From a virus, in the IMG/VR virus record IMGVR_UViG_3300047388_000185, positions 1-64,000 of that record: a stretch of 64,000 nt of DNA; one strand, written 5' to 3'. The notes below the pieces were generated by a model. The model saw nothing but the letters and a program-made list of their open reading frames with translations, was not told the origin of the DNA and did not search any database. The first letter of the stretch is position 1. Each line of letters begins with the position of its first letter. This document shows positions 24,601 to 48,353 of this stretch, piece after piece. The position numbers and the translations under genes were made by a program.

Positions 24601-25269
24601 ACCATTCTGAGACAAGATAACAGACGTCGCCCATTCGCTTGGTGCAATTGTGTCTGTAGGGCCACGAGCACTAGCAACGGCCGAGGTTACGTAAACCGGA
24701 TCTGTTCCAGGGGGGATGCTTGCTTGCCAGCCATTAGAGAGCCCAGTGAAGGCACCCGTCGCAAATGTGTAAATAACAGACAGATTCGGAAGGGGAGGAG
24801 CTCCTGTATTCGAGCGTTGATAGATGAAGATTCCGGAGTTATTAAGTCCATCCGTTCCCGCTGGACTACCGTTACCAGTTACCGCCGTAAAGTGGAGACC
24901 ATCGGTTGAAATGTGGTAGAGAATCGTTGGATCAGTATCAGCATAGAAAAGCGCTCCTGGACCCAGTTCCTTATCGGCATGACTTGGTGCTGATGCAATT
25001 TGGAATCCGGTACGGCGAACAAGTTTCGCTACAGCCGTATCCGAACTTTCCAGTAAAAACTGATTGATATGAACGCCAAAAGTCTTGCTATCGTCTAAGT
25101 AACACGACAAGTTCCCGTACGCATCCAGAGTCGTTTCACCCTGTGAATTAACGATTGTGCCATCTTGCAGCGCAATGAGAGCAGGAGTCGCATTACCAAC
25201 TTCCAGAATACGAACTCGGAAATTAGCTGAGCTAAGGCCGTAGGAACCAGTGAACAGGGAATATGCCAT
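18655..25269 (-). CDS. Giant tail fibre with eight tandem repeats, 2204 residues
   Basis: Residues 1-95 form the N-terminal module shared with the fibres at 32129 and 34787. Residues about 140-840 hold eight repeats of 80-95 residues, each with an (I/V)(F/Y)-x-(Y/F)-(Q/K) start and an EWA...L-(A/S)-Q-(D/N)-G end. Then come a collagen-like patch (GATGGTGAQG, near the seventh repeat), a jelly-roll (SPRY/concanavalin-like) domain near 850-1000, a lambda-J-like region (DGNLLVTGTVGAAAISVGSI), a second jelly-roll near 1670-1740 and a C-terminal beta domain. It should be a long side or tip fibre that recognises the host surface. TAAAATA lies 5 nt before the ATG. Confidence 0.85.
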   Translation of the reverse strand: MAYSLFTGSYGLSSANFRVRILEVGNATPALIALQDGTIVNSQGETTLDAYGNLSCYLDDSKTFGVHINQFLLESSDTAVAKLVRRTGFQIASAPSHADKELGPGALFYADTDPTILYHISTDGLHFTAVTGNGSPAGTDGLNNSGIFIYQRSNTGAPPLPNLSVIYTFATGAFTGLSNGWQASIPPGTDPVYVTSAVASARGPTDTIAPSEWATSVILSQNGISSGSIFLFQRTTTATPPPVPDAPVTYTFANGIATGLDNGWTQSLPTTGGSYRWMTTASALAPSGQSTDVINASEWAAVSLLAQDGTNGQVGLNNAIVYAYQRSATAPSLPTAVVTYTFTTGVAVGLDNGWTSTPPDGTDPIYVTVASASSVNPSDTIQPAEWAPPIVFAQNGTAGLNTSTIFLYKVTSTSTPPALPSAAATYTFSTATASGVNNGWVQSLPTSGGSYRWITTATALSTTDTDTILPSEWATASLLSQDGSAGLNNAIVYAYQRASSLPSVPSATVTYTFATGVTTGLNNGWTSTPPTGSSPLYVTIASASNAGSTDTIGTAEWASPVVLAQDGTAGLNTATIFLYKVTGTNSAPTLPSTTVTYTFATGVATGVNNGWTQSLPTSGGSYRWITTASALSNTSTDTINSSEWAPAALLAADGATGATGGTGAQGNPGADGLNNAVVMVYQRATSSPSVPSATVTYTFATASVTGLTNGWLATIPAGTDPIYVTSATAAASGTTDTIATGEWATPVVLAQNGTAALNAATVYLFQRTATSTAPSVPSATVTYTFATGLAAGVNNGWSQSLVPTGGIYRWMTTATALATGATDTIATGEWATVSLLAQDGAPGASMFTLVPNANMTVNGATVTKTAGGNTYNGQVYTSQSYSNGAQMTMAVNGTDNIVAGLNTDPLTSGGTGYAGIDYAVTVSSNIMQIYESGTYRGNFGAVSTGDVLGVRYDNANVYYTLNGTIVRTLAVGAGLKLALDASFGVLNASTSFTFAAAGAAGTNGVNGTNGSNGQRGSQTFYVTLGGVTATWSDSLANTASSGGGGPVLNDQVVESNSSVGFSQTRFWNGTSWVVVTQVLDGNLLVTGTVGAAAISVGSINTTKLAAGSVTASKLVLSDFQNLVFNGKGNSADGWTASNVAPTSITGAVFWPTGSVSSTALQFESRDNFYGTPFSILPTDQFYVAMDTLPFGGGVSAYTFAIGLVFTDANGGVVSYVAGATRNTVTSGFVSIAGSLTAVAGAAYATVWVQIAGPGGSQPFTANGAGHYATNVQVRRMNGGNLIVDGAISANKITANTITAAQISATAGITAGQIDARGLSIKDGSGNVILSAGVPLTSSNITPSAGWINTNVVAGSGNLYQNTDFSLFSSGIPTGFTVYNSTPISITNTVVSSGGAVGTAGYWHMVMNANATSNVGYFLSGGWAGWQQNVDYVWSFYARAPIGGNVTGAGMAPAWNHFPANFTWLQNPSLTTSWQRYVCQVNFGNNTLDANGFMYTALNPNSGVQLDFSCIQIETGLVPSGWAPLQYVDSTGTLRGNPSGAGGVAVNNSNISISSSGTLSGAGGGAVTIGGLGYTGALNASADISLVPRVYAAVAGNSISKTASGGSWDSDVYSKESFTGGAFASAVAPNTSTHTMFGLNTDPLTDSSFTSLDYAWYVQPGGGLVVYQSGAAVLSGLTYVAGDVFTITYDGLNVNYYQNGVLRYGPVLVGSGLKLYFDSSLYDVGLCLTNVRFGPMTNIAPTAGLIQADVATSLGFNPSFSAWAGALPDNWSQWGNSPPIKTVAYNTPGMQYGALYTISSADVTYGSVGMVNSWSNTGAPLSAGTTLTGSYSIQMLNGGTATPGYLIRLFTNSALTTYVDNLVPCPHPGTGGWQKVPWTATAGGAPIYNITIYQMAGWTGFPGGMTTAGMSMVFGPFTFNVDLPVSTAQAASGLINTSITIDGSGNLQGIGSGAGTQVSNSYTLLKASPSILSSTISINAVSGAGFVAGNLTWNGSGARTGGSGVALTPGGLLGTNSSGTTTFSIDASTGNAYFAGLLATGTASQGASSGSISSTATNGGGSSGINTGGLTVLTYVASGNDVLVMYNVNVVIMTNTNTPLQVQFNPMIAGAVYSPSGHLPEWEGALTQSTPMALAAGTGATAYNWGVTLNFCPSFVVPGATIGSGSKLIGFYVAATFRNGSGGGNVVTGSSIYAEGIATVREFKA
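22752..24852 (-). repeat. Eight tandem coding repeats in the giant fibre
   Basis: Eight units of about 240-285 bp, seen as recurring GLNNA or GLNT starts and SEWA/GEWA ends in the translation. Two sub-types alternate over most of the array: one with NGWTSTPP-type loops, the other with NGW-QSLPTSGGSYRW. Confidence 0.85.
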
Positions 25270-26231: not shown

Positions 26232-27833
26232 TTAGTAAGTGAAAGTGGTATCTGGACCAGAATCTTTATCTTGATACGTAAATTGACCGGTATGAACCAT
26301 TTGAGCCAAGAAAGCAAAGGTTAATGAATGGATAAAATCATCCGGAGCATCTTCGTCCTTCTTATAAAGACGTCGACCAGCAAGAGATTCTTCTTCATAG
26401 ATATGCAGAGCATCAGTCCAGAAGTTGTTCATCAGATCCCAGCATGGAGTTTCTATACGGCCGGCACCCATCTTTACCTTGATGACGGCCGTGTCAATTG
26501 CCAGAGTTCTATCGGCAGCAAAGAAGTCGCCTTGCTTGTCGTAGCGAAGGTTAGTCTTGGCAGTAACATACTGCATCATACTGACCTGTTCTTGACCCAA
26601 GGCCCGCTTCATTATTTGACCTTGAAGAACGCCGACGCCTCTATCCGAACCCATATGAGTGCATTTGAAATGCTGAAAGACCATAATGACTCTATCCACC
26701 TGGGCAAGGATATCGATACTATTTAGGCGTTGGGCGTAGAGGACATATGCCTTACCAGCTGAATCAAAGCCCACGACGGTAATGACTGTGAAACTCTTGG
26801 CAGAACCTGTGACTGACCAATCCACTCCCAAGACGGTATACAGGATATTTCGACTATCTCCGATTTCGGGAAAGCCTCCATCAAACTGAGTCCGTTCGGG
26901 ATTACAGACGGCCATCACCTGACGGATAGAGAGGGGACGACCACCAGCTCCAACTGGAAGTCCAAAGACTTCGTTGCTTAACTTAATCTGGTCGTATTTC
27001 GCTACCTTGTCAACTAGTTCAGGCCACTTCTTTGGCGTCGTGCGTGCAGGAATTGAAAACTGCGGGATGTGAACCCCGATGTGTTCTTTGACTGAAGGTA
27101 CCCCTGCCATCCACTGGCCGGTTTTCATGTCGAGTATATTTCCACAATGAGGGCAGGCGGGGCCAAGAGGGTTCATGGTCGCCATCTTCAGGCAAGTCTC
27201 GAACTCATTAGGGATAGCCCACCGAGCACAGTGAGGGCATTTGACTACCCACTCCATCATGTTGGAACGTTTGAACAAAATGGTCAGAGTATTCGCTTCT
27301 CCTTTAGCCGTACCGGTATATCGACGGAATGAATAGTCTGAAGCCGAGAGGGTCTCTTCCAAAATAGGGAGGGCTTCTATCGAAGCATCCTGAACTTCGT
27401 CATAGAACATTGCGTCTGCTGCGACTCCCCGTACTCGGTCGGCGTCCTGCTCAGTTTCAGCATACCCCAGGGTTACAGAGGAACCATTACTAAAGGTCTT
27501 AGAGAAGACGTTCTTGGTTTCTGTCGAAGTAATGTAATGATTCTTGACGATCGCGGAATTACAGAACGGGCCTAGATAGGTCGCGGAGAACCTAGAGGTT
27601 TGTTGAGAAAGCGGGGAGATAAACAGGGTCGAGAAATGTTCTCTAAGGATACTGTTCGAAATAATGGACGCAGCTAGGGAAACTGACTTACCAATTTGTC
27701 GGCCGCAGCAAGCTGTAAGCGTACGAGGAGCAAGATCGTAGATTAGTTCGAACGGCTTATATTCAGAGAGATTGAGCGGCTTACCCTTAAGTGTCAAGAT
27801 TGCTTGGGCTAACTGCGAAGGTAGTACTTCCAT
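26232..27833 (-). CDS. Terminase large subunit
   Basis: The 533-residue protein has an ATPase with Walker A CCGRQIGKS at about residues 42-50 and Walker B DAMFYDEVQD near 145, a CPHC...CPHC zinc-type insert near 195-230, and an RNase-H-like nuclease with the first aspartate in VLGVDWSVTG near 330 and the last acidic pair in DDFIHSL near 505. It drives DNA into the prohead and cuts it. The ATG at 27833 is chosen because the only upstream in-frame start is a TTG lying inside a terminator hairpin. TAAAATA sits 6 nt before it. The ATP-binding cysteine-rich P-loop is unusual but conserved in phase. Confidence 0.93.
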   Translation of the reverse strand: MEVLPSQLAQAILTLKGKPLNLSEYKPFELIYDLAPRTLTACCGRQIGKSVSLAASIISNSILREHFSTLFISPLSQQTSRFSATYLGPFCNSAIVKNHYITSTETKNVFSKTFSNGSSVTLGYAETEQDADRVRGVAADAMFYDEVQDASIEALPILEETLSASDYSFRRYTGTAKGEANTLTILFKRSNMMEWVVKCPHCARWAIPNEFETCLKMATMNPLGPACPHCGNILDMKTGQWMAGVPSVKEHIGVHIPQFSIPARTTPKKWPELVDKVAKYDQIKLSNEVFGLPVGAGGRPLSIRQVMAVCNPERTQFDGGFPEIGDSRNILYTVLGVDWSVTGSAKSFTVITVVGFDSAGKAYVLYAQRLNSIDILAQVDRVIMVFQHFKCTHMGSDRGVGVLQGQIMKRALGQEQVSMMQYVTAKTNLRYDKQGDFFAADRTLAIDTAVIKVKMGAGRIETPCWDLMNNFWTDALHIYEEESLAGRRLYKKDEDAPDDFIHSLTFAFLAQMVHTGQFTYQDKDSGPDTTFTY

Positions 27834-27839
27834 TGCCGA

Positions 27840-27846
27840 TATTTTA
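27840..27846 (-). promoter_or_regulatory. Late-type motif TAAAATA, 6 nt before the terminase ATG
   Basis: A terminator hairpin on the opposite (upstream) side begins only 11 nt from the motif, so an independent transcription start here is likely. Confidence 0.6.
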
Positions 27847-27856
27847 ACACTAAATG

Positions 27857-27877
27857 AAAAACCCGTCAATTGACGGG
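27857..27877 (-). terminator. Terminator between the 804-residue protein and terminase
   Basis: Minus strand stem CCCGTC, loop AATT, GACGGG then TTTTT. It ends the transcript coming from the glycosidase-like gene. Confidence 0.85.
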
Positions 27878-32128: not shown

Positions 32129-34177
32129 TTAACCGTTGTAAACGCGCCAGTTGTCTTGCGACACCTGGTATGCATAACCACTAGCAAGCTGCTCGCTTGT
32201 AGAATAGGAATACGTTGACCGCTTGGTTAACGTGACACCGGCACCAGCGGCAATAGTCACAACGCCAGCCCCTGCTTGGGTATACGGAAGGAGCGTTCCG
32301 ACTGGATACGGTACAGAAGAATGCGGGGGAATCGTCGCTGTAATGGAGGCCACATTGCTAAGATCCACGTTTTGACCTGCATCGGCCAAGACGAACGTGT
32401 AAGTAGTACCTGTCTGAGCATTGATCGTCTGCACTGAAAGAGCGGCAGTATTAGCCGCTACTTGAGCGTTCAATGCCGCACCGTCAGTTAGATCAGTCGT
32501 AGCAAGTTTGCCGGTCATTTGACCCACTGGCACTTTCGTGTCACTACCGAGACTGGCAACACCACTCGCAGCAGCTACCTGAGCAGAAGTAACTTGTTGA
32601 ACCCAAGCGGTTCCGTTGCTTTGATAGATGAGGTATGGGGCAGAACTACCAACCGAAGCAAATTCCCCCTGATAGCTAGCGGCTGGGTAGGCAGTCTGTA
32701 GAGCCGCCGTGGAAGCGTACGTGCCCAGATTGGTTAGAACCAAGTTCCAGTTGGTGCCATCACTGGCATAGATAGAATAGGGGGCGGCTGAGCCGACTAG
32801 GCCACGATTACCACCGTTCGATCCGGCAGGAAACGCCGCTTGAAGTGCTGCGACGTTGGCATAAGTACCAACCACGCGAGTAATATTTGCGCTGTCAGAG
32901 AGATCTGTCGAAGCTGGCTGAGCAAGGCTTGGAACTCCAGAGGTGCTGATTCCAGTTACAAACTGATGGGAGACGAGAGCTGCTGATTGAACTCCGCCAA
33001 GCGTACTAGCAGTTGGGGCGGGTAATTGCGCCGCAGGAATATGTGTCGTACTATCAAGAGACGCCACACCACTGGCAGCACCCTTCTGGGCCGCAGGCAG
33101 AGCAGCATTAGCTGTCGTCTTGATTGTATTGACTGAAGGATTATTAACACCGAGGTCATAAGTACCCATGTCTGTAAGGGCAGCAAGAGTTGTCGAGCCG
33201 CCTCCGCCAGCACCTAGGACACTCCAAGCCGACCCATTGCTAGCGTACAGGACGCCACTGATGAGAGCGGTACAAGCGACATTGCTGGCCGCAGGATATG
33301 CCGTCTGAAGAGCACCCGTTGAGCCGAACGTACCTAGATAGCCACCTCCCAAGACAACCTTGGTGTAGACGCCACTGCTGAATACAGCCATGTCCGTCGG
33401 GTTAAAGGTCAGTCCATCGAGGACAGCGCTGGTCGAACCGTTATAGATGAAAGCGTTGGTGCCGTATGTCGGGAAAGGATTGGTACTAGAGACGAGCGCC
33501 GGAGTCGTGCCGTTCCAATTCTGAGGGATACCGATCTTGCCGGTTATTGCCGTAGTGTTATTTCCAACCGCCGTATTCAGCGCCGCGCCGTCCGTAAGAT
33601 CGGTCGTGGCTAGCTTACCCGTAATCTGGCCAGTCGGAACCTTAGAGTCTCCACCGAGTGAAGCAACGCCGTTCGCGGCTCCTACTGCAGTGGTGGCAAC
33701 CTTCGCAGCCAAGGGAGTAACGAGATTGGTAGTGTAGTCAGATGCACCGGTCAGAGAAGTAATGCCCCCGCCTCCACCCGTAACTGCAACATACTGAGTC
33801 TTATCGGCGCTAATACGGTACTGTGCCGCAGGATTAGTGTCCAAGAAGAACGTAGCTCCGAAACCCTGTCCAATATCCGAAAGGGTAGGGGTCCCGGCTA
33901 ACTGTGAGGCCGTTCTTTGAATTTCCGTAGCGAGACTAATTCCACTAGCCCCTAGTTGAAATTGGTTATACCAGACCGTGAAGGTCTTAGAACTATCGAG
34001 GTAAACGGATAGATTGCCTGAGCTATCGAGGAAAACGTTACCGTGAGCGCTAAGCATCCCGCTAGTGGCAGTTGCCATAATGATAGCAGGAGCTCCAGTA
34101 GCTTGTTCTAGAATACGAACTCTGAGGTTCGCATAATTTACTCCGTAGGAAGCTGTGAATAGGGTATAAGTTGCCAT
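32129..34177 (-). CDS. Tail fibre with shared N-terminal anchor module
   Basis: The 682-residue product starts with a module (MATYTLFTASYGVNYANLRV, then LDSSGNLSVYLDSSKTF) homologous to those of the fibres at 18655 and 34787. Behind it lie two copies of a shaft unit with KVPTGQITGKLATTDLTDGA, short Gly-rich connectors and a C-terminal beta domain with AGAGVVTIAAGAGVTLTKRS, typical of phage fibre tips. It probably attaches to the baseplate by the N-terminal module and recognises the host by its C-terminus. TAAAATA stands 5 nt before the ATG, right behind a terminator. Confidence 0.8.
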   Translation of the reverse strand: MATYTLFTASYGVNYANLRVRILEQATGAPAIIMATATSGMLSAHGNVFLDSSGNLSVYLDSSKTFTVWYNQFQLGASGISLATEIQRTASQLAGTPTLSDIGQGFGATFFLDTNPAAQYRISADKTQYVAVTGGGGGITSLTGASDYTTNLVTPLAAKVATTAVGAANGVASLGGDSKVPTGQITGKLATTDLTDGAALNTAVGNNTTAITGKIGIPQNWNGTTPALVSSTNPFPTYGTNAFIYNGSTSAVLDGLTFNPTDMAVFSSGVYTKVVLGGGYLGTFGSTGALQTAYPAASNVACTALISGVLYASNGSAWSVLGAGGGGSTTLAALTDMGTYDLGVNNPSVNTIKTTANAALPAAQKGAASGVASLDSTTHIPAAQLPAPTASTLGGVQSAALVSHQFVTGISTSGVPSLAQPASTDLSDSANITRVVGTYANVAALQAAFPAGSNGGNRGLVGSAAPYSIYASDGTNWNLVLTNLGTYASTAALQTAYPAASYQGEFASVGSSAPYLIYQSNGTAWVQQVTSAQVAAASGVASLGSDTKVPVGQMTGKLATTDLTDGAALNAQVAANTAALSVQTINAQTGTTYTFVLADAGQNVDLSNVASITATIPPHSSVPYPVGTLLPYTQAGAGVVTIAAGAGVTLTKRSTYSYSTSEQLASGYAYQVSQDNWRVYNG

Positions 34178-34786: not shown

Positions 34787-36751
34787 TTAAGACCCAGTAA
34801 TGACAATCGGCGCCGTAGCGGACGTCTGGGAAGTTGATGCAGTTGTAACTGCAATCCGAGCAAAGCGAGCGGCCATCCCAGGGGCTGCAGTGTACGCCGT
34901 GGTCGCACTTGCAACAGCGGCTACCGAAGCACTGGCTGGAAGAATGTTAACTTGATCTGCGCTGAACTGAAGCTGATAGGAAGCGGGGCCTGATGCAACG
35001 CCCAGCGGAACCCAACCTGTGACGCTGGTGCAACCTGAAACGTCATACCAAGCCGTAGCAGTGCTGACAGTCCCGGCAAGAGCTCCAGCAGTTCGGTCAA
35101 ACCATTGACGTTGGACCGTGGCCGGTGAAATAGACAACCGGGTAGCTGTTACCACAACAGTAGCGGTAGTCGCAGCCGTTGCCGTGTTGCTTGAGTTCAC
35201 GTTTATCCAACGATATCGACGACGACCTGGAAGCATGATGGCTGGAATAAACGCATGACCCGCTGCGGTCAGACGCTCAACTTGCCAGTAATCATACCAA
35301 GTCGTACCACCGTCTGGAGACCATTGAAGCCAAATATCGATACCAACGGCACTGCCTCCGGTGTACGCAGAGAGATTGATGTCCATGGAACAAGTACCTC
35401 CTACGCCGTCGGCTATAGTAGAACTGTTACCAGATGAGGCTGACCAGGAAGTCGAGGAAACATCAGTCCCGTGTGTCGGCGCGCTCAGAACTACTCCCAA
35501 ACTAGCATTAGCACTACCGCCAACCTGGCCTAATGTTGAAGCAGTGGATGAGCTGTTATACTGCGTCAAGTTTACGGTTGTAACAGTGGTGGCTGAAGCG
35601 ACACTGGCATTTAAGCTGGCAGTCAAGGTTCCAGACACCGTAGCCGAATTTGCTGACAAGCGAAACGCCTTTGCGCCTGCAACTTTCCACTGGAAGGCAC
35701 CAGTAACTGAGGTAGCAATCGTGGCAGAAGAAACGGATACCTGAGGAGTGTTGGTCGGGGTCGTGTATTCGGACAAGGATTGCCAGTTCGAACCATCGTA
35801 ACTAATCTGAGCTGTTACCTGTGCACCTAAGGTATTCGCCGTAATGGACGCTACGACAACTGCCTGACCATTCAAAGCGATAGAAATGGTCGAATTCGCA
35901 GTAGCTGTTCCGCTAGAAACGTTCAAGTTCTGAGCGGTGATATTCGTGGAAGTCGTGGACACGTCAGCCGGAGCCCCAACGGTCACTGGATTATTAGGAC
36001 TCAAAGCGACAACTAGCGCCGGATCGGTTGCGACGGCAGCAGTGGAGGCTGCTTTAACAACGGCAGTGGCGACGATAGGGGCGGCTGCAATAGTAGCGAG
36101 CGAAGTATTACCAGTATCTTGCTTGGCACTAGTAGCAGCACCAGTCGTATTGGTAGCAATAGTAGCTAGAGAAGTATTACCAGTCGTTTGATTGGCAGCA
36201 GTCGAAGCTCCAGTTGTATTGGTAGCAATAGTAGCGAGCGAAGTGTTACCTGTCGTTTGATTGGCCGCAGTAGAAACGCCTGATACAGTTACAGGGACAG
36301 CAGCTTGGTCAGAAGCGATAACAACCGGAGTAGAATTCGCAGAATTTGCAGATCCCTTTGCGGGAAGTTTCGTATCAATACTGGCAAGAGAAGTATTGCC
36401 AGTAGTTTGCAAAGCCGAAGTAGCACTCCCTCCGCCCCCGCCAGCTGTATTGGTAGCGATGGTTTGAACCGCAGTCTTAACCAATAGCTGAGTGGATTCT
36501 TGCGTGTTCGAACTCGAAGCTGTTGAGCCAGGAATGGGGTAGAGGTCTACCTGCCAGGTTTTGGAACTATCAAGATAGGCAGCCAGATTTCCGCTGCTGT
36601 CAAGGGTCGCAACACCCAATGAATTGACTAGACCTCCCGTAGCTGAGGCCATGACAATGGCCGGGGCTTGGGTTACAGTGTCAAAGATCTTGACTGGGGT
36701 GTTAGCGTAGGATGCGCCAAACGATGCGTTATATAGAGCGTAAGTTGCCAT
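34787..36751 (-). CDS. Tail fibre with TTGNTSLATIATNT repeats
   Basis: The 654-residue protein has the shared N-terminal module (MATYALYNASFGASYANTPV), followed near residues 110-220 by a short helical repeat, TTGNTSLATIATNT, in five to six copies, which would form a coiled trimeric shaft. The C-terminal part has beta-rich domains with WLQWSPDGGTTWYDYWQVER and YRWINVNSSNTATAATTATV. It is the first gene of the leftward fibre operon and lies back to back with the Ubl gene. TAAAATC lies 5 nt before the ATG. Confidence 0.8.
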   Translation of the reverse strand: MATYALYNASFGASYANTPVKIFDTVTQAPAIVMASATGGLVNSLGVATLDSSGNLAAYLDSSKTWQVDLYPIPGSTASSSNTQESTQLLVKTAVQTIATNTAGGGGGSATSALQTTGNTSLASIDTKLPAKGSANSANSTPVVIASDQAAVPVTVSGVSTAANQTTGNTSLATIATNTTGASTAANQTTGNTSLATIATNTTGAATSAKQDTGNTSLATIAAAPIVATAVVKAASTAAVATDPALVVALSPNNPVTVGAPADVSTTSTNITAQNLNVSSGTATANSTISIALNGQAVVVASITANTLGAQVTAQISYDGSNWQSLSEYTTPTNTPQVSVSSATIATSVTGAFQWKVAGAKAFRLSANSATVSGTLTASLNASVASATTVTTVNLTQYNSSSTASTLGQVGGSANASLGVVLSAPTHGTDVSSTSWSASSGNSSTIADGVGGTCSMDINLSAYTGGSAVGIDIWLQWSPDGGTTWYDYWQVERLTAAGHAFIPAIMLPGRRRYRWINVNSSNTATAATTATVVVTATRLSISPATVQRQWFDRTAGALAGTVSTATAWYDVSGCTSVTGWVPLGVASGPASYQLQFSADQVNILPASASVAAVASATTAYTAAPGMAARFARIAVTTASTSQTSATAPIVITGS

Positions 36752-36756
36752 AGCCG

Positions 36757-36763
36757 GATTTTA
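36757..36763 (-). promoter_or_regulatory. Late-type motif TAAAATC, 5 nt before the ATG at 36751
   Basis: It opens the fibre operon in the divergent intergenic region shared with the Ubl gene promoter. Confidence 0.55.
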
Positions 36764-36786
36764 GCTCTGCATCAACGATTAGAAAT

Positions 36787-36815
36787 TTCAATAATTTACG
36801 ATTTCGAGGTATAAG
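36787..36815 (+). promoter_or_regulatory. Extended -10 promoter of the Ubl gene
   Basis: TTCAAT at 36787-36792, 17-bp spacer, TATAAG at 36810-36815. The leader carries a short hairpin CTCTC/GAGAG followed by TTTCTTTTC near 36836-36860. Confidence 0.65.
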
Positions 36816-36885
36816 AGTTTGTATACAAAGTATGCCTCTCAGATCAGAGAGTTTCTTTTCTTAGTTAACTTAGAAAGCACTACAA

Positions 36886-37089
36886 ATGAAGACCATCGTT
36901 TCCATCCCGTCGCAAGGTACCGAATCCCCGGCCATGGGCGGCGACCTGAGCGAAGCGCAAGTTCGCACCATGTTCGCCCCGCAAGTCCCCGGCATCGCCA
37001 ACATGGTTGCCACGAGCACCCTGGGCAGCGACGCTGACGGCCAAGTGCGCACCTGGACGTTCCAGCCGCGTACCGGCAACAAGGGCTGA
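36886..37089 (+). CDS. PRTRC protein C-type ubiquitin-like protein (Prok_Ub)
   Basis: The 67-residue protein matches the PRTRC protein C family in its conserved half: DLSEAQVRTMFAPQVPGIAN corresponds to the LSPEEVR..YA..YPEL stretch, and WTFQPRTGNKG to the terminal YTF.RAVGTKG, ending at the glycine that is the usual conjugation end of this family. It would be activated by the E1-like protein at 42059 and attached to targets or to itself. Codon use is noticeably GC-richer than in neighbours, and it has its own promoter, leader hairpin and downstream structured RNA, all suggesting high expression. The ribosome binding site is weak. Confidence 0.8.
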   Translation: MKTIVSIPSQGTESPAMGGDLSEAQVRTMFAPQVPGIANMVATSTLGSDADGQVRTWTFQPRTGNKG

Positions 37090-37176
37090 GTTAGCCTCTG
37101 AGCTGAGACCTGAGCGAATAATGAACTCCAACCTGAAGCTCTGTGTGGGCTCTAGCGCAAGTGCGCAGAGGTTAGC
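37090..37176 (+). ncRNA. Structured RNA element after the Ubl gene
   Basis: GTTAGCCTCTG (37090-37100) pairs with CAGAGGTTAGC (37166-37176) over 11 bp with two wobble pairs. Inside are GCGC-AAGT-GCGC (37155-37166, partly competing with the outer stem) and four CTGAG copies around 37085-37114. It starts directly at the stop codon; it may stabilise the Ubl mRNA or be a processed small RNA. Confidence 0.4.
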
Positions 37177-37222
37177 GTAGTTTCTTTTCGCTTAGGTTTG
37201 AAAGCTTAAATAACTCAAAGAA

Positions 37223-37246
37223 AGCAGGCACAAGTCTGCTTTTTTT
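37223..37246 (+). terminator. Terminator of the Ubl transcript
   Basis: AGCAGGC, loop ACAA, GTCTGCT followed by TTTTTT. It separates the Ubl gene from the rest of the cassette. Confidence 0.85.
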
Positions 37247-37291
37247 AGTCGTATCATTTACAATTGCCGCACGCACGCAAGGAGAGCAACC

Positions 37292-38359
37292 ATGGCCAAG
37301 AAGCCTACGATTAGACTAAAGAAAACAGAACTTCCCATCGATCCCCTGGCAGCACATGACCATGCGACTCAAAACCAAGATCGGTTCTATCAACATGCTT
37401 CCCGTCTATTGGCCGAGTTTCATACGGTCGACGGTGTAGCGTCTCGTAGCCGGTTTAAAACCGACTTCGAAGCATCCGCTTTTGTTCCAAGAGTTCGAGC
37501 TCCCCTGAAACTTCACCGAAATTTCCCAGTTGTTGCCAGTCGCCGATTAGTGGACGCTGCATCACACCGGGCCCCGTGGATTTGGAAAGTACGAGAATCG
37601 GTTAGCCCCGTCGAGTATTTCAGCAATGGAAAGGCTAGTGCGGAAACGTTCGTCGGCCAATCAGATTCTCATCCATTTTGCTTTGAAATTGCTTTTGAAG
37701 GAAAAGTATTTACGGAAGCAGTCGATGCAGATACCCGAAAGCACTTGAGTGACAGTTTCGAGAAATCCAAGGAGATTCGGGCTCTGAAGCGCTACCTTGC
37801 AAGGATCAATCTGCAGTGCGTCAAAGAGGCGATTCCAGTTTTCTTAACGAGTGCTTCGAGAGAACCCCTGGGTCGAAATTGGACCGAGCCTGATTGGGAA
37901 GGTGATCGAATTTTCTGCCCAGGAATAGTCATCAGAACCGAATTCTGCAAGACGTGGTTGACGAACTATGACTACAACGCAACTTCACTGATCGACGGAA
38001 GCAATCTCGGCCGCATTCCGGCTGAATACGATTTGGAACGAGCGGCAATGGGCTTCCGAGGAAATGCCGACGTAGAGTTTCTACGTCGGGAGATGAATCT
38101 CGAAGTCGCATTCCAAGTTATCTCTGGTACCCACTATCCCGTGACCGTTCCGACAGCTTGGACTAAGGAGATGATATTTGGCACGGATCCGAATCCGGAG
38201 GATGTTCGTTCCGGAAAGGCTCCAATTCCGCCAAAAGCGGAGGTGGTAATGGTGACAACATTGCTGGAGAGAATTCCTGAAATGAAACGCATCATTAGTA
38301 CTCTTATGAGGATCGCACGACCATATGATCACGCATCTTTTCTCCCAACTGATCTCTGA
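37292..38359 (+). CDS. Unknown 355-residue protein of the ubiquitin-like cassette
   Basis: It starts at an ATG with a strong AAGGAG ribosome binding site. The basic N-terminus (KKPTIRLKKTELP) is followed by mixed alpha/beta sequence; conserved-looking parts include FCFEIAFEGKVFTEAVDAD and FCPGIVIRTEFCKTWLTNYD. No catalytic motif was recognised. PRTRC clusters carry a protein F of similar size, so a diverged member is possible, but this could not be confirmed. Its end overlaps the next gene by 35 nt. Position between the Ubl and E2-like genes points to a target, adaptor or regulator of conjugation. Confidence 0.75.
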   Translation: MAKKPTIRLKKTELPIDPLAAHDHATQNQDRFYQHASRLLAEFHTVDGVASRSRFKTDFEASAFVPRVRAPLKLHRNFPVVASRRLVDAASHRAPWIWKVRESVSPVEYFSNGKASAETFVGQSDSHPFCFEIAFEGKVFTEAVDADTRKHLSDSFEKSKEIRALKRYLARINLQCVKEAIPVFLTSASREPLGRNWTEPDWEGDRIFCPGIVIRTEFCKTWLTNYDYNATSLIDGSNLGRIPAEYDLERAAMGFRGNADVEFLRREMNLEVAFQVISGTHYPVTVPTAWTKEMIFGTDPNPEDVRSGKAPIPPKAEVVMVTTLLERIPEMKRIISTLMRIARPYDHASFLPTDL

Positions 38360-38582
38360 GCTAACCGGGGATCTGAGCCCCTCCGGGATTCAGAAAGAAA
38401 TCCTGGCAAAGCCCATCGAGACCCTGACCCCCGTCCAAAATGTTGGCCTCTTCCTGTTCTGGAATCATCTCGCTGGAGCATCGACTTCAGGGGCCGCCAG
38501 GTTGGATCCGTCAGTCGTCATGGCAGTAATGACTGGACTTCCCGAAGTCCAAGATGCTACCGATGACTTCTACTTTATCTGA
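38325..38582 (+). CDS. Small helical protein of the ubiquitin-like cassette
   Basis: The 85-residue product is predicted to be helical (HLFSQLISELTGDLSPSGIQ, QNVGLFLFWNHLAGA) and is overlapped by the upstream gene. It starts inside the 355-residue gene, so it is probably made by translational coupling. No family was recognised. Position directly ahead of the E2-like gene suggests a small partner of conjugation. Confidence 0.65.
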   Translation: MITHLFSQLISELTGDLSPSGIQKEILAKPIETLTPVQNVGLFLFWNHLAGASTSGAARLDPSVVMAVMTGLPEVQDATDDFYFI

Positions 38583-38592
38583 AAGGATATCC

Positions 38593-39378
38593 GTGAGCAC
38601 TGAAACACTCGAGGCTGTCTCTGCTGTAGAAGCCCCCACCGCAACTCCCACCCCCGTGGAAAACCCCGCAGACTTTACTGAGGTTCACGGTACCCGAGTC
38701 GATCTTCTTGAGAATGCTGTCAAGCTTCATCTGAGCAACGGCACGACTCGTATCGTCAGTTACAGCGATTTCTCTCAGACATTGCTGACGTTCCTCGACA
38801 AGGCCCAAGAGTCCAAGGTTGCAACCCTGCGCTTGCTCCCGTCAAATGTATACGCTATCGAGGAAGGAGTTAGCCATTTGAATTTGGGCTTCTATTTCCC
38901 GGAGACAATTCAGAATGTCAACTTCCTCGGGGACATTGAACGTCGAGTTGTCCCAAACATCATCCTCACGGTGTATTTGACCCGGGGAGCCGGAGATAAG
39001 AAGTTCGACTTCAAGTTCCGCGATGCTCGCTATTACTGCACGAATCTGCCGCTGGCCCGGCTGCCCCGAGAGATCGTGAGCAAGACGGGACCGAGCATCT
39101 CGATCCTTCCGTTCACTAACGTGTACTCGGAAGCGAATCTGTGCATGGGGAACAACTCGATCATCTCGGACTTCTTGAATAATGATCTGAGGGCAACTAG
39201 CTGGTACCACGACATGCTCTGGGCCAGCCCATTCAACAACGATCTCGGTGTCCGAGCCTTGAAAGAAAGCAGTAAGTACCGGGATAGCAACAGCAGTTGG
39301 TACAAGCATCTTGCCAAACTAGCCAAAGATGGCAAGGGATTTCCTTACGAGGAAGTCCGAAACATGACTCAATCCTGA
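38593..39378 (+). CDS. PRTRC protein B-type E2-like protein (Prok-E2_D)
   Basis: The 261-residue protein starts at a GTG preceded by AAAGGAT; an in-frame ATG at 38554 lies inside the upstream gene. The diagnostic region is LPFTNVYSEANLCMGNNS, matching the PF.NVY.DGRVC.G signature of PRTRC protein B, the prokaryotic E2 family D. Cys184 in NLCMG is the likely thioester-forming residue; the downstream SWYHDMLWASPFNND resembles the family's W..FF.S.F.H. stretch. It would pass the Ubl from the E1-like protein to a target. The N-terminal half is acidic and Ala/Pro-rich. Confidence 0.8.
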   Translation: MSTETLEAVSAVEAPTATPTPVENPADFTEVHGTRVDLLENAVKLHLSNGTTRIVSYSDFSQTLLTFLDKAQESKVATLRLLPSNVYAIEEGVSHLNLGFYFPETIQNVNFLGDIERRVVPNIILTVYLTRGAGDKKFDFKFRDARYYCTNLPLARLPREIVSKTGPSISILPFTNVYSEANLCMGNNSIISDFLNNDLRATSWYHDMLWASPFNNDLGVRALKESSKYRDSNSSWYKHLAKLAKDGKGFPYEEVRNMTQS

Positions 39379-39387
39379 AAGAACCTC

Positions 39388-41967
39388 ATGCATCACGTCC
39401 TCATTCCAGGCTTCGCCTGCGTCGTCATGGCCCCCGTTACGGGAGAGCCGGACTATCTCCAAGCTGCTATTGATGCGGCTTATCCGATCATCTACATCAT
39501 CACCAACAACGGTGACAAGTACGTTCGCCGGCTGCAGCCAGGCAAGAATGCTGAGGGTAAGGATCGTTTCGTCACGATGAAGATCCCTACCATCCCAGGC
39601 TTCAAGGTCGGTGATATCAAGGAAGAGAACGCGTTTTTGCCGGCCGGCAAGATTCCGTTCGCCTTGATGAAGTCGGTCGAGAAGTTCTTCAAGGACGTGA
39701 TCGCCAAGTTCGGCGATACGAATCTGGAATCCATGATTTGGATCATGTGGAACCCGGAACAAGGCTACTTCCTCCACGTTCCCAATCAAACGGTGGCTGG
39801 CGCTGCTGTGACGTACGACTGGGGAAACCTGCCGGAAAACAGCAAGATCATTGTTGATATCCATTCTCATGCCAACTTCGCTGCGTTCTTCAGCGGAACG
39901 GACGATCGGGATGACTCCAACACTGTTCGCTACAGCGGCGTGTTCGGATACAACCGTCGACCTGATCCGGAAAAGAAGTTCCGGTTTAACTTCATGGACG
40001 TGAAGAAGATCGTGGAAATTGGTGAGATCTTCGAGGCTCCGACGGTCCAGGTGGAAGATACTCCTTCGGAATGGCTTGACAAGGTTCAGGTCACGGCCTA
40101 CATCGCCGGCAAGGGTGGCGCCAGCTATCCAGGCCAATCGCGTCACTCAGTTCATGGCGCAGGAGGAAACCCCAACGGCTACTCGCATCCTTCGTACTGG
40201 GATGGTCCGGACCCCGAACGCTACAAGGCTGTTAAGCCCAGTAACGCCACCGCAGTGGGGTTTCGAGGCGGCGCTAGGGGTTGGTGCTTGAAGGGTGGGG
40301 GATTCGTCTCATTCGACGACTGGGAGAAGGAGTATCCGGTTGCTCTGGCTGAACAAAAAGCAGAGCAGGCAGAGAAGGAAGCTGAAAAGCGGCGCAAGGC
40401 TGAGGAGAAAGCAGCTCGTAAGACTGGTACTTCGACTGAAGGAGGTCAGCAAGGAACCAGCCCTTTGGAACTAGTCGTTCGGGAAACCGAACAAAGCTTG
40501 GCCTCCCAAAAGGAGCAAACCGAAAGCAGACTCGACGCGACAAGCAACTTACTGCCGAGCGTGAACGAGAACAACTCGAGCAGCTTGGTAACTCGATTCC
40601 CCTCAACAACGTTTCCGTCGTCCCAACCCTCGAACAATCAGACCTTCAACCCGTCATCCCGGGAACTACCCACACTGCCAGTGACGGATCGGGACTTCCA
40701 GGTGGGCCCGGGAGCCCGACAACTCACTGGACAAACGCAAGTGACTCCGAGTTCGAGGACGTCGTCTTCGGAGGCCCCTTCGACCGTCCAGTCCAACGAG
40801 AAGAGTTCACCAACAACGGAGCCCGACCCAGTGGTCAACAAGGCTTCGGACACGTCGCAAACTTCGGATTCGACTCCGAAGAATACGACGTCCTCTGGGG
40901 GTTTGGCGGATCCTCTGGGGATTTTCACTGAGCTTGTCAATCGTCCGGTCGGCTATGTGAGCGAACCGCAAGAGGATGGCACTTACGTCCTGAAGACCGT
41001 CGTCATGGACTTTCGAGGAGGGGTCACGCAGGCTCAAAATGAGGCTCTGACCGAGCTCGAGCAGGCTACCTACCAGCAGGAACTTCGGGACGCTCAAAAG
41101 GCGCTCCAGAGCGGTTCTAAGAGCGCTCTTTTGGAAGAGACGGGAAAGGCACCGGAAGGAATTTTGCAAGTGGAGATTCCAACAGCACCGACCTTGGTTC
41201 GCAAAGCCGTGATTGGAAGTAGCGAGGTGAGCCCGCTGGGTGGAGGGTTTTTGCCGGCCCCGGTCAGTGCTCCAGTTCTGCAACAGCGTCAAACTGTTCC
41301 TACGGTCCAACAGCAAGCCCCGTCCCTGATTCGGACAACTCACTCCGATCACGGGGTTCGGGTAACGAGTCATGTTGGGGAAACTGGTGGCGCTAGGAAC
41401 GGCTGGACTCGGGATCAATGGCTTGCGCGCAATCGTAGCCAGAGATCTGAGCCCGACTACGTTGCAGGGGAATCGGTCCAGAACTGGTTGGATCGACGTG
41501 CTGCACAGATCGAACGAGATCTTGGCATCATGGGTGCGGCAGTGAATCCGATCAGTGAATCTTCGATCGATCGCATGCACGAACGGCAACGACAAGAGGA
41601 TCTTTTGCATGACTCTGAGGAGTTGGCTACGCTTCAAGAGGGCGCAGCTATTCTCTTTCAGAAGTCAACTCCTTCCGGAGTCATCAATATCCTACCTGAC
41701 AACGTAGTTACTTTGAGATTGGAGGAGGGTGATCTCCCCGCTTCTTTCAATGCCGACTGTGTTGATTATGGTACGGCTGCGGCTGGTGCAAAGGCTCTTA
41801 TCGATGTGGCAGCCCAACAAATCTTCAGCAACGGCAGTTTGTTGCGAAAGACGGTACAGGGGTTGTTCGAGCAAGTCAACGAAGATGAGCGGCTTCCGCT
41901 ATTCCGGACCCTGGCTCATAGTCTGACCTCAAAGGCCCGAGACGATCTTGGTGTGAACGGGCTCTAA
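39388..41967 (+). CDS. PRTRC protein A-type JAB/JAMM metalloprotease, extended
   Basis: The 859-residue protein has a JAMM motif near residues 155-175, DIHSHANFAAFFSGTDDRDD, with H-x-H, the Ser and the two aspartates that bind zinc in JAB deconjugases; an upstream MIWIMWNPEQGYFLHVP region and downstream YSGVFGYNRRPD fit the fold. PRTRC protein A is normally a short protein of this kind, so this one carries about 600 extra residues: a helical charged part, a long Ser/Thr/Gln/Pro-rich linker (about 370-560) and a helical C-terminus. It may remove or mature the Ubl. Two GGAR(G/N)GW motifs lie in it, in VGFRGGARGW and TGGARNGW. Confidence 0.8.
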   Translation: MHHVLIPGFACVVMAPVTGEPDYLQAAIDAAYPIIYIITNNGDKYVRRLQPGKNAEGKDRFVTMKIPTIPGFKVGDIKEENAFLPAGKIPFALMKSVEKFFKDVIAKFGDTNLESMIWIMWNPEQGYFLHVPNQTVAGAAVTYDWGNLPENSKIIVDIHSHANFAAFFSGTDDRDDSNTVRYSGVFGYNRRPDPEKKFRFNFMDVKKIVEIGEIFEAPTVQVEDTPSEWLDKVQVTAYIAGKGGASYPGQSRHSVHGAGGNPNGYSHPSYWDGPDPERYKAVKPSNATAVGFRGGARGWCLKGGGFVSFDDWEKEYPVALAEQKAEQAEKEAEKRRKAEEKAARKTGTSTEGGQQGTSPLELVVRETEQSLASQKEQTESRLDATSNLLPSVNENNSSSLVTRFPSTTFPSSQPSNNQTFNPSSRELPTLPVTDRDFQVGPGARQLTGQTQVTPSSRTSSSEAPSTVQSNEKSSPTTEPDPVVNKASDTSQTSDSTPKNTTSSGGLADPLGIFTELVNRPVGYVSEPQEDGTYVLKTVVMDFRGGVTQAQNEALTELEQATYQQELRDAQKALQSGSKSALLEETGKAPEGILQVEIPTAPTLVRKAVIGSSEVSPLGGGFLPAPVSAPVLQQRQTVPTVQQQAPSLIRTTHSDHGVRVTSHVGETGGARNGWTRDQWLARNRSQRSEPDYVAGESVQNWLDRRAAQIERDLGIMGAAVNPISESSIDRMHERQRQEDLLHDSEELATLQEGAAILFQKSTPSGVINILPDNVVTLRLEEGDLPASFNADCVDYGTAAAGAKALIDVAAQQIFSNGSLLRKTVQGLFEQVNEDERLPLFRTLAHSLTSKARDDLGVNGL

Positions 41968-41973
41968 CAGCCG

Positions 41974-42003
41974 TTCAATAAAAGCTGTAAATGTTGGTAA
42001 AAG
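41974..42003 (+). promoter_or_regulatory. Extended -10 promoter of the E1-like gene
   Basis: TTCAAT at 41974-41979, 18-bp spacer ending TTGG, then TAAAAG at 41998-42003. Confidence 0.55.
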
Positions 42004-42028
42004 AAGGGGTAGGAAACTATCCCTTCTT
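42001..42028 (+). promoter_or_regulatory. Leader hairpin of the E1-like mRNA
   Basis: AAGAAGGGGTA pairs with TATCCCTTCTT (11 bp, one wobble) around the loop GGAAAC. There is no T run, so it may stabilise the mRNA or regulate translation. Confidence 0.5.
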
Positions 42029-42058
42029 AGCCGTTCCATCCACATTCGAGGTATTTCC

Positions 42059-43309
42059 ATGTTTGCATATTTCCCCCACTTTCTACCAACTTCGATTGTT
42101 GTGATTGGAGCGGGTGGGACAGGATCTAGACTGATTCCCCCGATGGCACAGTTGATCAAAACGTGTCTTCGCAAACACAACCCAGCAGCAATGCTGGACA
42201 AATGTGATATCTACGTCATTGACGGAGACATCGTAGAAGAGAAGAACCTGAGTCGTCAGAACTTCATCACGCCAGACGTCGGTCGTAACAAGGCTTTGGT
42301 TGTGGCGGAGAGATACGCTCGAGCGTTTGGTATCAATGTCATCCCCTGCACGGAATTTTTGACGCCCACGACGAGGCCGACATTTGATGGTCCGGCTGGA
42401 GAAATCGCCTTCAAAACTGTATTTGAAAATGCAGTTGTGATCTTTTGCGTTGACTCCGCAAAGGCTCGCAAGGAGATTCTCCAGTTCATGAATAAGTACT
42501 GCACATCAAATCTCTTCGTTATCGACGCAGGAAACGAAGATGACTTCGGGCAGATCAAGATGTTCACCGGCCATTTGCTGCTGAACTCTGGATCCGAGAC
42601 GAAGAAGACTCTGGCCGGCATGCCGAAGGATGTCCCGTGCTCGTTGACGACGGGGTTCATTCCAATGGACTTCGAGTACTACGAAAATCTCGGTGAATCG
42701 GTGAGTGAACGGAGTTGCGCTGATCTGCCACAAACTCTGGCTATCAACACGATGATGGCAACGTTGATTCTGTGTACGTTGCAGAACTTCATGCAGCTTC
42801 GCCCCATGACTTACGATGGTCAAAGCTACAGTCTCACGGGGGGAACTTCAACCAGTTGGAATACCCCTCGACGCTGGGCTCAACGGGTCGTGGATTGGGA
42901 CAATGCGAAGGCGGCCCATCATAACTTCATTCGAGGAAATGGTCGGATCAATGCGGGTACCGCTCTGAAGGCCAGCGGGGACGAAAATGGAGACATTTTC
43001 TTCAAGCTGCGAAACGAAGCGAAAGCCAGCTATAAGGCGTCGGGAATGAGGCTACTCAGCTCCGGTGAATTGGAGCAGATCGCACCGCCTCCTCCTCCGG
43101 AGATGAAGGTCGTGGCTGAAATTCCAGAAGCACCTGTTCTGAAAACGATCCCTACGATTGAAATTCCGGAGGCAGCACCAGCCCAGGTACCGACGGCACC
43201 GCCGTTGGCTCGTCGCACGCGGACACTTCGAGAAGTGGCTGTCGAAGTGTTTACGGCGGAGGACTTGGTTGCCACTGCTCTTCAACCGCCAGCGCCCTTC
43301 GATTTCTAA
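42059..43309 (+). CDS. PRTRC ThiF/E1-like adenylating enzyme
   Basis: The 416-residue protein has the E1-type nucleotide loop GAGGTGS at residues 17-23, the adenylation signature YVIDGDIVEEKNLSRQNF, then GRNKALVVAERYARAFG and VIFCVDSAKARKEIL, as expected of ThiF/MoeB/E1 enzymes of the PRTRC type. It would adenylate the Ubl C-terminus and pass it on as a thioester. The family is usually shorter; here residues about 270-416 add an aromatic region and a Pro/Ala-rich C-terminal tail. A bidirectional terminator follows. The start has a ribosome binding site-like GAGG about 9 nt before the ATG. Confidence 0.88.
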   Translation: MFAYFPHFLPTSIVVIGAGGTGSRLIPPMAQLIKTCLRKHNPAAMLDKCDIYVIDGDIVEEKNLSRQNFITPDVGRNKALVVAERYARAFGINVIPCTEFLTPTTRPTFDGPAGEIAFKTVFENAVVIFCVDSAKARKEILQFMNKYCTSNLFVIDAGNEDDFGQIKMFTGHLLLNSGSETKKTLAGMPKDVPCSLTTGFIPMDFEYYENLGESVSERSCADLPQTLAINTMMATLILCTLQNFMQLRPMTYDGQSYSLTGGTSTSWNTPRRWAQRVVDWDNAKAAHHNFIRGNGRINAGTALKASGDENGDIFFKLRNEAKASYKASGMRLLSSGELEQIAPPPPPEMKVVAEIPEAPVLKTIPTIEIPEAAPAQVPTAPPLARRTRTLREVAVEVFTAEDLVATALQPPAPFDF

Positions 43310-46741: not shown

Positions 46742-47455
46742 ATGACAAACACCTTGAAAAACTACGGGCCACAACAAGCCCTCAATCCGGCAAACTTCAT
46801 CCGGCAAAACGCCGAGGGGCTCGGACTTACGACCGAAGATCTGAAAGTTTCTTTTGAGACGATCATACCTCTACCCAAAGGCGCAGCGGGGACCCCAACT
46901 CTTGTCAGAGCCTCGAAGAAGTACATTGTACCTTTCAATGGGAAATTCTATTCATATCCTATGGTGTTAGTAGACCACCCAACGAGCAGAGACCTGCTGA
47001 AGATCCAAGCTCCGATTCCAAACATTCTCCGAGAGGGAATGGTAGTTGTGGGCGGTGAAGTTCTGTTTGTCAAGTTAGAAGATTTGAAGAGAGGGATCGT
47101 TCGAAAGAGCAGAAAACTGCCGATCCCACCGAAACGCACGATCACGTATAAAGACTTCATCGATGGACTTGCTTGTACCCAATCCGCCGACCTCCCCGTC
47201 GACCATTACTACTCTACTGCCTCCGTCGTCAAACGCCGAGCAGCCCTTGACGCCGCCGCCGGATGTTCGCCGACCCCTGGACCTGAAGAAGCTGGGGCAC
47301 CTGTCGATCTCCTCCCACGAGGAGATGAAGGCTCAATTGACCTGGACGAAGAATCTAGGCTCATTAACCTGGCTTTCCAGGAGCAAGTCGGATCACTATA
47401 CTGTGATCCGAATGAAGAAGAAGACTGGCAAGACGAGGACGATTCACAATCCTGA
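46742..47455 (+). CDS. Unknown protein overlapping the RT gene
   Basis: The 237-residue product starts with a good AAGGA ribosome binding site at the ATG. The first 140 residues look like a folded beta-rich domain (KKYIVPFNGKFYSYPMVLVD, REGMVVVGGEVLFVKLED); the rest is Ala/Pro and strongly acidic, ending NEEEDWQDEDDSQS. The acidic end is encoded by the same DNA as the N-terminus of the reverse transcriptase in another frame. The upstream gene of a retron-type RT is often its effector or accessory protein, but no such family was recognised here. Confidence 0.7.
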   Translation: MTNTLKNYGPQQALNPANFIRQNAEGLGLTTEDLKVSFETIIPLPKGAAGTPTLVRASKKYIVPFNGKFYSYPMVLVDHPTSRDLLKIQAPIPNILREGMVVVGGEVLFVKLEDLKRGIVRKSRKLPIPPKRTITYKDFIDGLACTQSADLPVDHYYSTASVVKRRAALDAAAGCSPTPGPEEAGAPVDLLPRGDEGSIDLDEESRLINLAFQEQVGSLYCDPNEEEDWQDEDDSQS

Positions 47456-48353
47456 CGCCCAAATGCGCCGAGCCCAGTGGCGTATTTGTTCGAACATCCT
47501 GAACCAAGTCCCTATCCCGGAGTATATCTGGGGATTCGAACGGGGAAAGTCAGTTCCAAAGATGGCAGAAGTACATCGTGGGAAGAACGTCGTCATCAGC
47601 CTAGATATCAAGGATTTCTTCCCGTCGATCAAACAGGTCGACGTAAAGAGGATCTTCGAGGCACTGGGAGTTAGTCATGGTCCATCCGCCCAGATCCTTA
47701 GTGAACTCTGCACCTATAAGGCATTCGTGCCCCAGGGAGCACTGACCTCACCGAAGCTGAGCAACATCATGGTGGCTGCTACGTTCGGGCCTTTGGTCAA
47801 ACGATTCTGTGACATTTACAAGCTGAATCTCAGTATCTACGCTGACGATGTCACGATCTCGTTTGATGGTGTTCCAGAAGTTGTTGATAATCAAACGGAC
47901 ATGTCTCAACGAGACTTCGTCAAGAAGACCATCAACTTCGTTCGTATCAGTCTGGGAGAGTATCATTTCCGCTTGAACCCCGACAAGATCAAAGTCATGC
48001 GTCGTCATAACCGTCAATGGGTATGTGGGGCAGTTGTCAATGATCGCGTCAACATGATGAAGAGAGATCGATCCAACCTTCGGGCCCTCGTTCACAACTG
48101 TGAATTGCATGGCATTGAAGCAGAGGCTGGTAAGACCGGATCAAAGACTTTGGCATTCATCCAGAAGTTCGGAGGCAAGTTGAACTGGTATCGTCAACTT
48201 AATCCCGAGAAGGGTGGACCGCTTTATACCCGATTTAAGAAGTTGAGTATACCTTTGACGAAGCAGTACCCAGGTTTCGACTTGGATAAGATTGTCTACG
48301 ATTCAGGCATTGAGAATCCGGAGACGAGAGAGCAGATGGAAGCAACCAAGTAA
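47163..48353 (+). CDS. Retron-type reverse transcriptase
   Basis: The 396-residue frame (342 if it starts at the ATG at 47325) has RT0/1 motifs KKKTGKTRTIHNPDAQMRRA, IPEYIWGFERGKSV and LDIKDFFPSI, the motif-4 VPQGALTSPKLSN, the catalytic YADD and a VCGAVVN region close to the VTGLVVN of retron RTs. It should copy RNA into DNA. The first 55 residues are Pro/Ser/Thr-rich and overlap the neighbour's frame, so the true start is uncertain. Group II intron maturase domains are absent and the SQ motif of diversity-generating RTs is replaced by SP. No msr-msd RNA was identified with certainty. Confidence 0.9.
   Translation: MDLLVPNPPTSPSTITTLLPPSSNAEQPLTPPPDVRRPLDLKKLGHLSISSHEEMKAQLTWTKNLGSLTWLSRSKSDHYTVIRMKKKTGKTRTIHNPDAQMRRAQWRICSNILNQVPIPEYIWGFERGKSVPKMAEVHRGKNVVISLDIKDFFPSIKQVDVKRIFEALGVSHGPSAQILSELCTYKAFVPQGALTSPKLSNIMVAATFGPLVKRFCDIYKLNLSIYADDVTISFDGVPEVVDNQTDMSQRDFVKKTINFVRISLGEYHFRLNPDKIKVMRRHNRQWVCGAVVNDRVNMMKRDRSNLRALVHNCELHGIEAEAGKTGSKTLAFIQKFGGKLNWYRQLNPEKGGPLYTRFKKLSIPLTKQYPGFDLDKIVYDSGIENPETREQMEATK

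Follow-up and report, generated by a model that had tools for sequence, protein, structure and literature searches.

The operon at positions 36886-43309 of the window (i.e., the whole 64,000-nucleotide stretch analyzed here, which comes from a virus record of 192,737 bases, or 192.7 kb) encodes on its plus strand a ubiquitin-like protein (Ubl), ORF2, ORF3, an E2-like conjugating enzyme, a JAB/JAMM protease and an E1-like activating enzyme in one compact arrangement. Judged from its sequence, this cassette very probably conjugates a Ubl to protein, and it probably forms a working Ubl conjugation system, complete in its parts and fixed in a family of phages. Salmonella phage Arash and Vibrio phages D69, D148 and D181 carry the cassette, so that the proposal is testable now. 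Bacterial E1/E2/JAB systems have lately been studied chiefly as anti-phage defence, a picture that a conserved, phage-owned version reverses; if our reading is true, Ubl conjugation is a core viral process and not host defence only. The findings suggest that Ubl tagging of proteins is a routine step in the reproduction of the phages of this family. A limited search of the open-access literature found no description of a phage-encoded Ubl/E1/E2/JAB set.

Layout of the cassette

The cassette lies on the plus strand of a window whose remainder consists mostly of minus-strand virion genes:

26232-27869, minus strand: large terminase, the family marker (45% identity to the Arash terminase)
36752-36885, intergenic: putative promoter region (from sequence), between a divergent tail gene (34787-36751, minus strand) and the Ubl gene
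36886-37089, plus strand: Ubl, 67 aa, C-terminus -RTGNKG (PRTRC_C profile, AF2 model, invariant Gly64/Lys66/Gly67)
37292-38359, plus strand: ORF2, 355 aa, at the position of PRTRC_F or the type 6d helical protein (position, similarly placed ORF in relatives)
38325-38582, plus strand: ORF3, 85 aa (small ORF, same place in several relatives)
38554-39378, plus strand: E2-like conjugating enzyme, 274 aa, predicted active-site Cys197 (PF14460, hhalign to PRTRC_B)
39388-41967, plus strand: JAB/JAMM protease, 859 aa (PF14464, PRTRC_A, hhalign)
42059-43309, plus strand: E1-like activating enzyme, 416 aa, predicted catalytic Cys220 (PF00899, PRTRC_ThiF, hhalign, tree)

A sequence-only reading of this DNA had recognized Ubl, E2-like, JAB and E1 proteins by their motifs, and all four were found on the plus strand; it had overlooked ORF2 and ORF3. 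The motif that it gave for the E2-like protein, NVYSEANLCMG, is present, and the protein is 274 aa long when counted from the first ATG; the length of 261 aa given earlier would need a later start. The absence of a ParB partner, noted previously for the window, extends to the entire 192.7-kb record, in which no ParB_N domain was found anywhere. Matches to sigma-70-like promoters in the presumed promoter region of the cassette were no commoner than in shuffles, promoter and terminator scans gave nothing above shuffled sequence, and a search of Rfam returned no matches.

Identity of the components

Three of the proteins pass the Pfam cut-offs, namely the E2-like protein as Prok-E2_D (PF14460; 29.9 bits, cut-off 25), the 859-aa protein as Prok-JAB (PF14464; 28.9 bits, cut-off 25) and the E1 as ThiF (PF00899; 41.5 bits, cut-off 28.1). 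The 67-aa Ubl has no Pfam Ub match. The NCBIfam PRTRC models match their counterparts below cut-off: PRTRC_C matches the Ubl at 18.9 bits (E=0.0012; cut-off 45.95), PRTRC_B the E2 at 17.7 bits (cut-off 131.45), PRTRC_A the JAB at 69 bits (cut-off 101.8) and PRTRC_ThiF the E1 at 84.6 bits (cut-off 144.75). When alignments of the phage proteins were compared all-against-all with alignments of bacterial plasmid PRTRC proteins (hhalign), the matching pairs gave E=4e-5 for Ubl and PRTRC_C, E=6e-5 for E2 and PRTRC_B, E=9e-21 for JAB and PRTRC_A, and E=1e-30 for E1 and PRTRC_ThiF, and the off-diagonal pairs gave E values of at least 0.1, i.e., the scores are confined to matching components. The family assignments proposed for the four proteins from sequence alone were thus upheld in Pfam for E2, JAB and E1, while that of the Ubl failed there and was recovered only profile to profile.

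The AF2 model of the Ubl (pLDDT 82) has the element order b-b-a-b-b, and its best Foldseek match had E=0.21 and a TM score below 0.5, with protein L and p97/p47 included among the top entries. The model of the E2 (pLDDT 75) had no significant Foldseek match, Ube2T appearing only at rank 37 (TMt 0.38), and sequence profiles from the PDB were uninformative for JAB, E2 and Ubl alike. The fold evidence for the Ubl and the E2 is thus weak, and profiles, motifs and context carry the argument.

The motifs are strongly conserved within the phage family. Among 11 aligned phage Ubls, Gly64, Lys66 and Gly67 of the C-terminal G-x-K-G are invariant. In the E2, Cys197 (in LCMG) and Gly199 are invariant in all 22 genomes, as is N228-x-D230-L231 in the phage family; no downstream His column reaches 50% among the 22 phage-family E2s, whereas this His is found in 6 of 7 PRTRC_B rows, that of Burkholderia phage BgVeeders33 among them. 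The JAB protein, whose motif sequence is HSHANFAAFFSGTDD, has its catalytic domain at approximately residues 1-240, followed by a long C-terminal extension rich in Ser, Gly and Thr; the JAMM motif E ... H-S-H-x7-S-x2-D is complete (E114, H159, H161, S169 and D172 in 22/22 genomes), and the N-terminal region is present with R60 invariant. Within the genome collection, the JAB finds its best relative (35%) on a Thermoplasmata MAG contig (L111, JAGLME010000016.1), a 9.3-kb contig that also holds a weak reverse transcriptase match and that could be a mis-binned phage fragment.

The E1 carries GAGGTGS and IDGDIVEEKNLSRQNF, with a nucleotide loop GxGGxG (G17-x-G19-G20), the Asp pair D55/D57, RQxF and the predicted catalytic Cys220 (in SCADL). 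G17/G19/G20, D55/D57 and Cys220 are invariant, the Asp pair and Cys220 (family motif SC[AV]DL) across 22 genomes. The D69 row of the E1 alignment is shortened by the chosen start. The conserved N-terminal nucleotide loop of that protein (gp301, L003:8944-9957) precedes the annotated start and is encoded in an open frame that offers no ATG, GTG or TTG, which may reflect an unusual start codon or a sequence error.

ORF2 had no Pfam, NCBIfam or PHROG matches and aligns poorly even inside the phage family, in which an ORF of its type occupies the same slot in relatives; its dN/dS is 0.16-0.26 in Arash-like pairs. A candidate identity as PRTRC_F was set aside, as hhalign revealed no similarity (E=0.93). 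ORF3 showed no sequence match; several relatives have a small ORF at the same place.

A phage family and its inherited cassette

The source genome shows genome-wide synteny with Arash, with identities of about 26-55%, that takes in the terminase, the virion and capsid genes, the two subunits of RNA polymerase and the tail. It is also related to D69, D148 and D181. A search of viral contigs with the single E1 sequence gave no matches; an alignment-based search succeeded. The family was sampled by selecting viral contigs by terminase alone and then searching them for E1 and JAB, which were found in 24/27 and 25/27 of the records, respectively. In two of the exceptions (G009 and G019) the contig stops right at the terminase, on the side where the cassette would lie, and in G005 JAB begins at base 928 and E1 would fall off the contig. 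In 16 further fetched loci, Ubl, E2 and JAB are present in all 16 and E1 in 15, the exception again being G005. The set is single-copy in the family. It adjoins the terminase and is divergent from it in all 24 relatives measured, its far end lying 4.4-7.9 kb from the terminase; in the source genome the distance is 15.4 kb, with tail-fibre-like genes between.

The 24 family rows of the E1 tree make up a single phage-only clade (100/100 support), and the cassettes of BgVeeders33 and of phages like Bacillus phage KLEB27-3 fall elsewhere, adjoining plasmid sequences. Distances between cassette proteins track terminase distances (Mantel r=0.92 for E1, 0.92 for JAB and 0.87 for E2; 0 of 9999 permutations reach it), and dN/dS is 0.09-0.29 for all cassette genes tested, including ORF2, in Arash-like pairs, which shows purifying selection. 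The simplest reading would be that of one old acquisition, kept since. On these comparisons the cassette is a vertically inherited, fixed part of the phage family and not a stray plasmid cassette.

Tandem Ubl genes

The Ubl of the window itself is a single unit in which the Gly is already terminal. Several relatives encode more: there are two units in G007, G013, G017, G025, G026 and G027, three in Vibrio phage D69 and five in L032. The Ubl of G006 has a C-terminal extension beyond GTKG, and those of L028 and L038 have one additional Cys. Between the Ubl units of G007, 28/60 codons differ with 0 amino-acid changes, and between those of G027, 21/60 codons differ, again with 0. Outside the family, KLEB27-3 has four Ubl units, of which the second and third are identical in protein despite 32 nucleotide differences; the four are encoded head-to-tail by gp199 (L004:3784-4491), which ends VKAGVKG and is annotated as hypothetical.

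These are prokaryotic genes with a polyubiquitin signature, i.e., protein-identical, silently diverged units. Eukaryotic polyubiquitin genes are likewise built of head-to-tail units that are identical in protein, diverge silently and need release by a protease, although the phage units belong to another Ubl family, end in -TGxKG rather than -RGG and come from a prokaryotic virus. Units that have diverged silently and yet remain identical in protein imply that selection acts on the released unit, and the tandem units, the C-terminal extension and the additional Cys all imply that the Ubl is matured by proteolysis, a step most readily assigned to the JAB. We infer that Ubl precursors would be cut by the JAB, exposing the -TGxKG end.

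The Ubl of Arash (66 aa), on the reverse strand of OQ632216 at 180516-180713 (L002:107-307), is missing from the GenBank annotation, in which gp251c is a wrong-frame ORF overlying the true Ubl.

Relation to known systems

The cassette is related to the PRTRC and Iyer type 6d Ubl systems and would be expected to work like one. Like PRTRC plasmids (ParB-E-C-F-B-A-ThiF), it has the order Ubl, middle protein, E2, JAB, E1, and the C, B, A and ThiF profiles match its counterparts; the order C-F-B-A-ThiF is satisfied with ORF2 in the F slot. Unlike the plasmids, it has no ParB, no adjacent E, a middle protein unlike F, model scores below cut-off, a replaced E2 His and, in several relatives, tandem Ubls. 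The cassette is not filed as PRTRC because it lacks ParB, misses the cut-offs, has no recognisable F and has lost the E2 His. The sequence-only reading was right to relate a Ubl/E2/JAB/E1 set without ParB in a phage to PRTRC; its further view of a displaced plasmid PRTRC cassette gives way before the sub-threshold models, an ORF2 unlike PRTRC_F, and the phage-only E1 clade co-inherited with the terminase.

Type 6d operons, in the portion of the account by Iyer et al. 2006 drawn on here (PMC1779556), share with the cassette a small Ubl with a terminal Gly, a slot for a helical protein, a Cys-bearing E2, a JAB with an N-terminal region and an E1. In type 6d the N-terminal JAB domain bears a strict Arg and Trp. 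There the operons are described in bacteria and with a downstream E2 His, which the phage E2 lacks, and for phages that portion gives only a Ubl/JAB pair in lambdoid/T1 tail-assembly genes (PMC1779556).

Phages like KLEB27-3 (L004, L039, L043 and L047) also have an E2-like protein, JAB and E1 in order, and the silent divergence of the four-unit Ubl of KLEB27-3 resembles that of the family's tandem Ubls; their E1, unlike that of the family, groups with a Cytobacillus plasmid and represents a separate acquisition. BgVeeders33 is another phage with genes in the C, F, B, A and ThiF positions; its E1 falls inside the plasmid PRTRC clade, and its set looks like a separate, later acquisition. The set of this 33-kb phage (L007:5240-9726) is near the plasmid form and includes an E-position protein.

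Proposed pathway and alternatives

In the proposed pathway, the JAB metalloprotease would cleave Ubl precursors after -TGxKG to expose the terminal Gly, which the E1 would adenylate before carrying the Ubl on Cys220; the E2 would then receive the Ubl on Cys197 and pass it to lysines in its targets, from which the JAB may also be able to strip it. ORF2 and ORF3 may serve as specificity or adaptor factors. As a moderate preference only, we favour structural proteins of the phage, or host proteins for normal replication and assembly, as targets over host defences, as the set is invariably present, single-copy, adjoins the terminase and tail genes and is possibly virion-associated. Virion or assembly proteins as the principal targets are offered tentatively, at somewhat below even. 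The broader proposal, that the phage family depends on a viral "polyubiquitin" pathway in which JAB-matured tandem Ubls are used by E1 and E2 to modify virion and/or host proteins, as would be required in every infection, we put just short of even.

The possible link to the virion comes from Arash, whose particles have been analyzed by mass spectrometry with a published protein table that contains Gp247, Gp248, Gp249 and Gp251 (PMC10585845). The numbering in Table 2 of that paper appears to run one ahead of GenBank (OQ632216) after gp240, and the coverage percentages fit the lengths of GenBank proteins one number lower (77.17% = 267/346, 61.41% = 253/412 and 76.25% = 244/320). With this one-number offset, the four entries become, in turn, E1, JAB, E2 (for which the offset is carried over) and ORF2, and we infer that these proteins appear, weakly, in Arash particles. 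The GenBank "structural protein" labels were not accepted at face value, the offset counting against them. All four could accordingly be packaged and injected with the RNA polymerase, whose subunits occur in the particle at high counts (PMC10585845), so that host proteins would be Ubl-modified at the start of infection. This early host takeover is an unlikely reading, in that the cassette proteins are represented by only 2-5 unique peptides each, the same table holds clearly non-virion enzymes such as primase, DNA ligase and RNR (PMC10585845), and the Ubl, being unannotated in Arash, was probably absent from the proteome search database.

The sequence-only reading had also offered that the cassette blocks host Ubl defences, and we regard such a role, in which it would block, mimic or strip CBASS Cap2/Cap3, Bil or Bub, as distinctly improbable. 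That the whole family has the cassette favours a core phage function. Genes for counter-defence usually show a patchy distribution, whereas this set is missing only where the contig ends short of it, and it follows the terminase. The JAB could take off host Ubls, but the phage brings its own Ubl and the whole forward pathway, not a protease alone. CBASS Cap2/Cap3, Bil and Bub share the E1/E2/JAB logic and, unlike the cassette, are host defence; a PADLOC/CBASS identity was rejected, with E1-E2 models matching at 15 bits only. Such bacterial defences do exist (e.g., PMC10097602).

Less probable still is a metabolic sulfur carrier, in which the Ubl would be thiocarboxylated like ThiS, MoaD or Urm1 and serve tRNA thiolation or the synthesis of cofactors. 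Such systems also have E1-like ThiF enzymes and a C-terminal Gly, but the E1 scores 84.6 bits with PRTRC_ThiF against about 25 with ThiF, a JAB and an E2 whose Cys is invariant always accompany it, and no ThiS-, MoaE- or rhodanese-type match was found among the cassette proteins in Pfam and NCBIfam. Least credible of all is a plasmid-type role in maintaining or partitioning a replicon, taken over from PRTRC plasmids, with whose operons the C-x-B-A-ThiF order agrees, given that the record has no ParB domain, the E1 clade stands apart from plasmid PRTRC and Arash is reported to be without lysogeny genes (PMC10585845).

Neighbouring genes

Among the tail genes, at 46742-48353 of the window (plus strand), is a retron-type reverse transcriptase with a YADD motif, which matches PADLOC RT_III-A (E=2.6e-61) and NCBIfam retron models and has an overlapping 237-aa ORF upstream. 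In L025-L030 it is likewise conserved on the downstream side of the cassette, and it may be another stable gene in part of the phage family. The locus had no Rfam ncRNA match, just a 10-nt inverted repeat nearby, and a diversity-generating retroelement was discounted, no direct repeat resembling a template/variable pair.

A 90-nt direct repeat (72%) at 25174-25263 and 34079-34168 of the window lies at the 5' ends of genes for tail-fibre-like proteins of 2204 aa and 682 aa, and suggests an attachment domain common to both. Homologues of the two Arash RNA polymerase subunits, at about 50-55% identity, are located at 92540-96136 and 78843-80729 of G000:C1 (both minus strand), and a homologue of the sigma-like Gp10 of Arash is at 8875-9768 of the window (minus strand); the phage thus encodes its own multi-subunit RNA polymerase.
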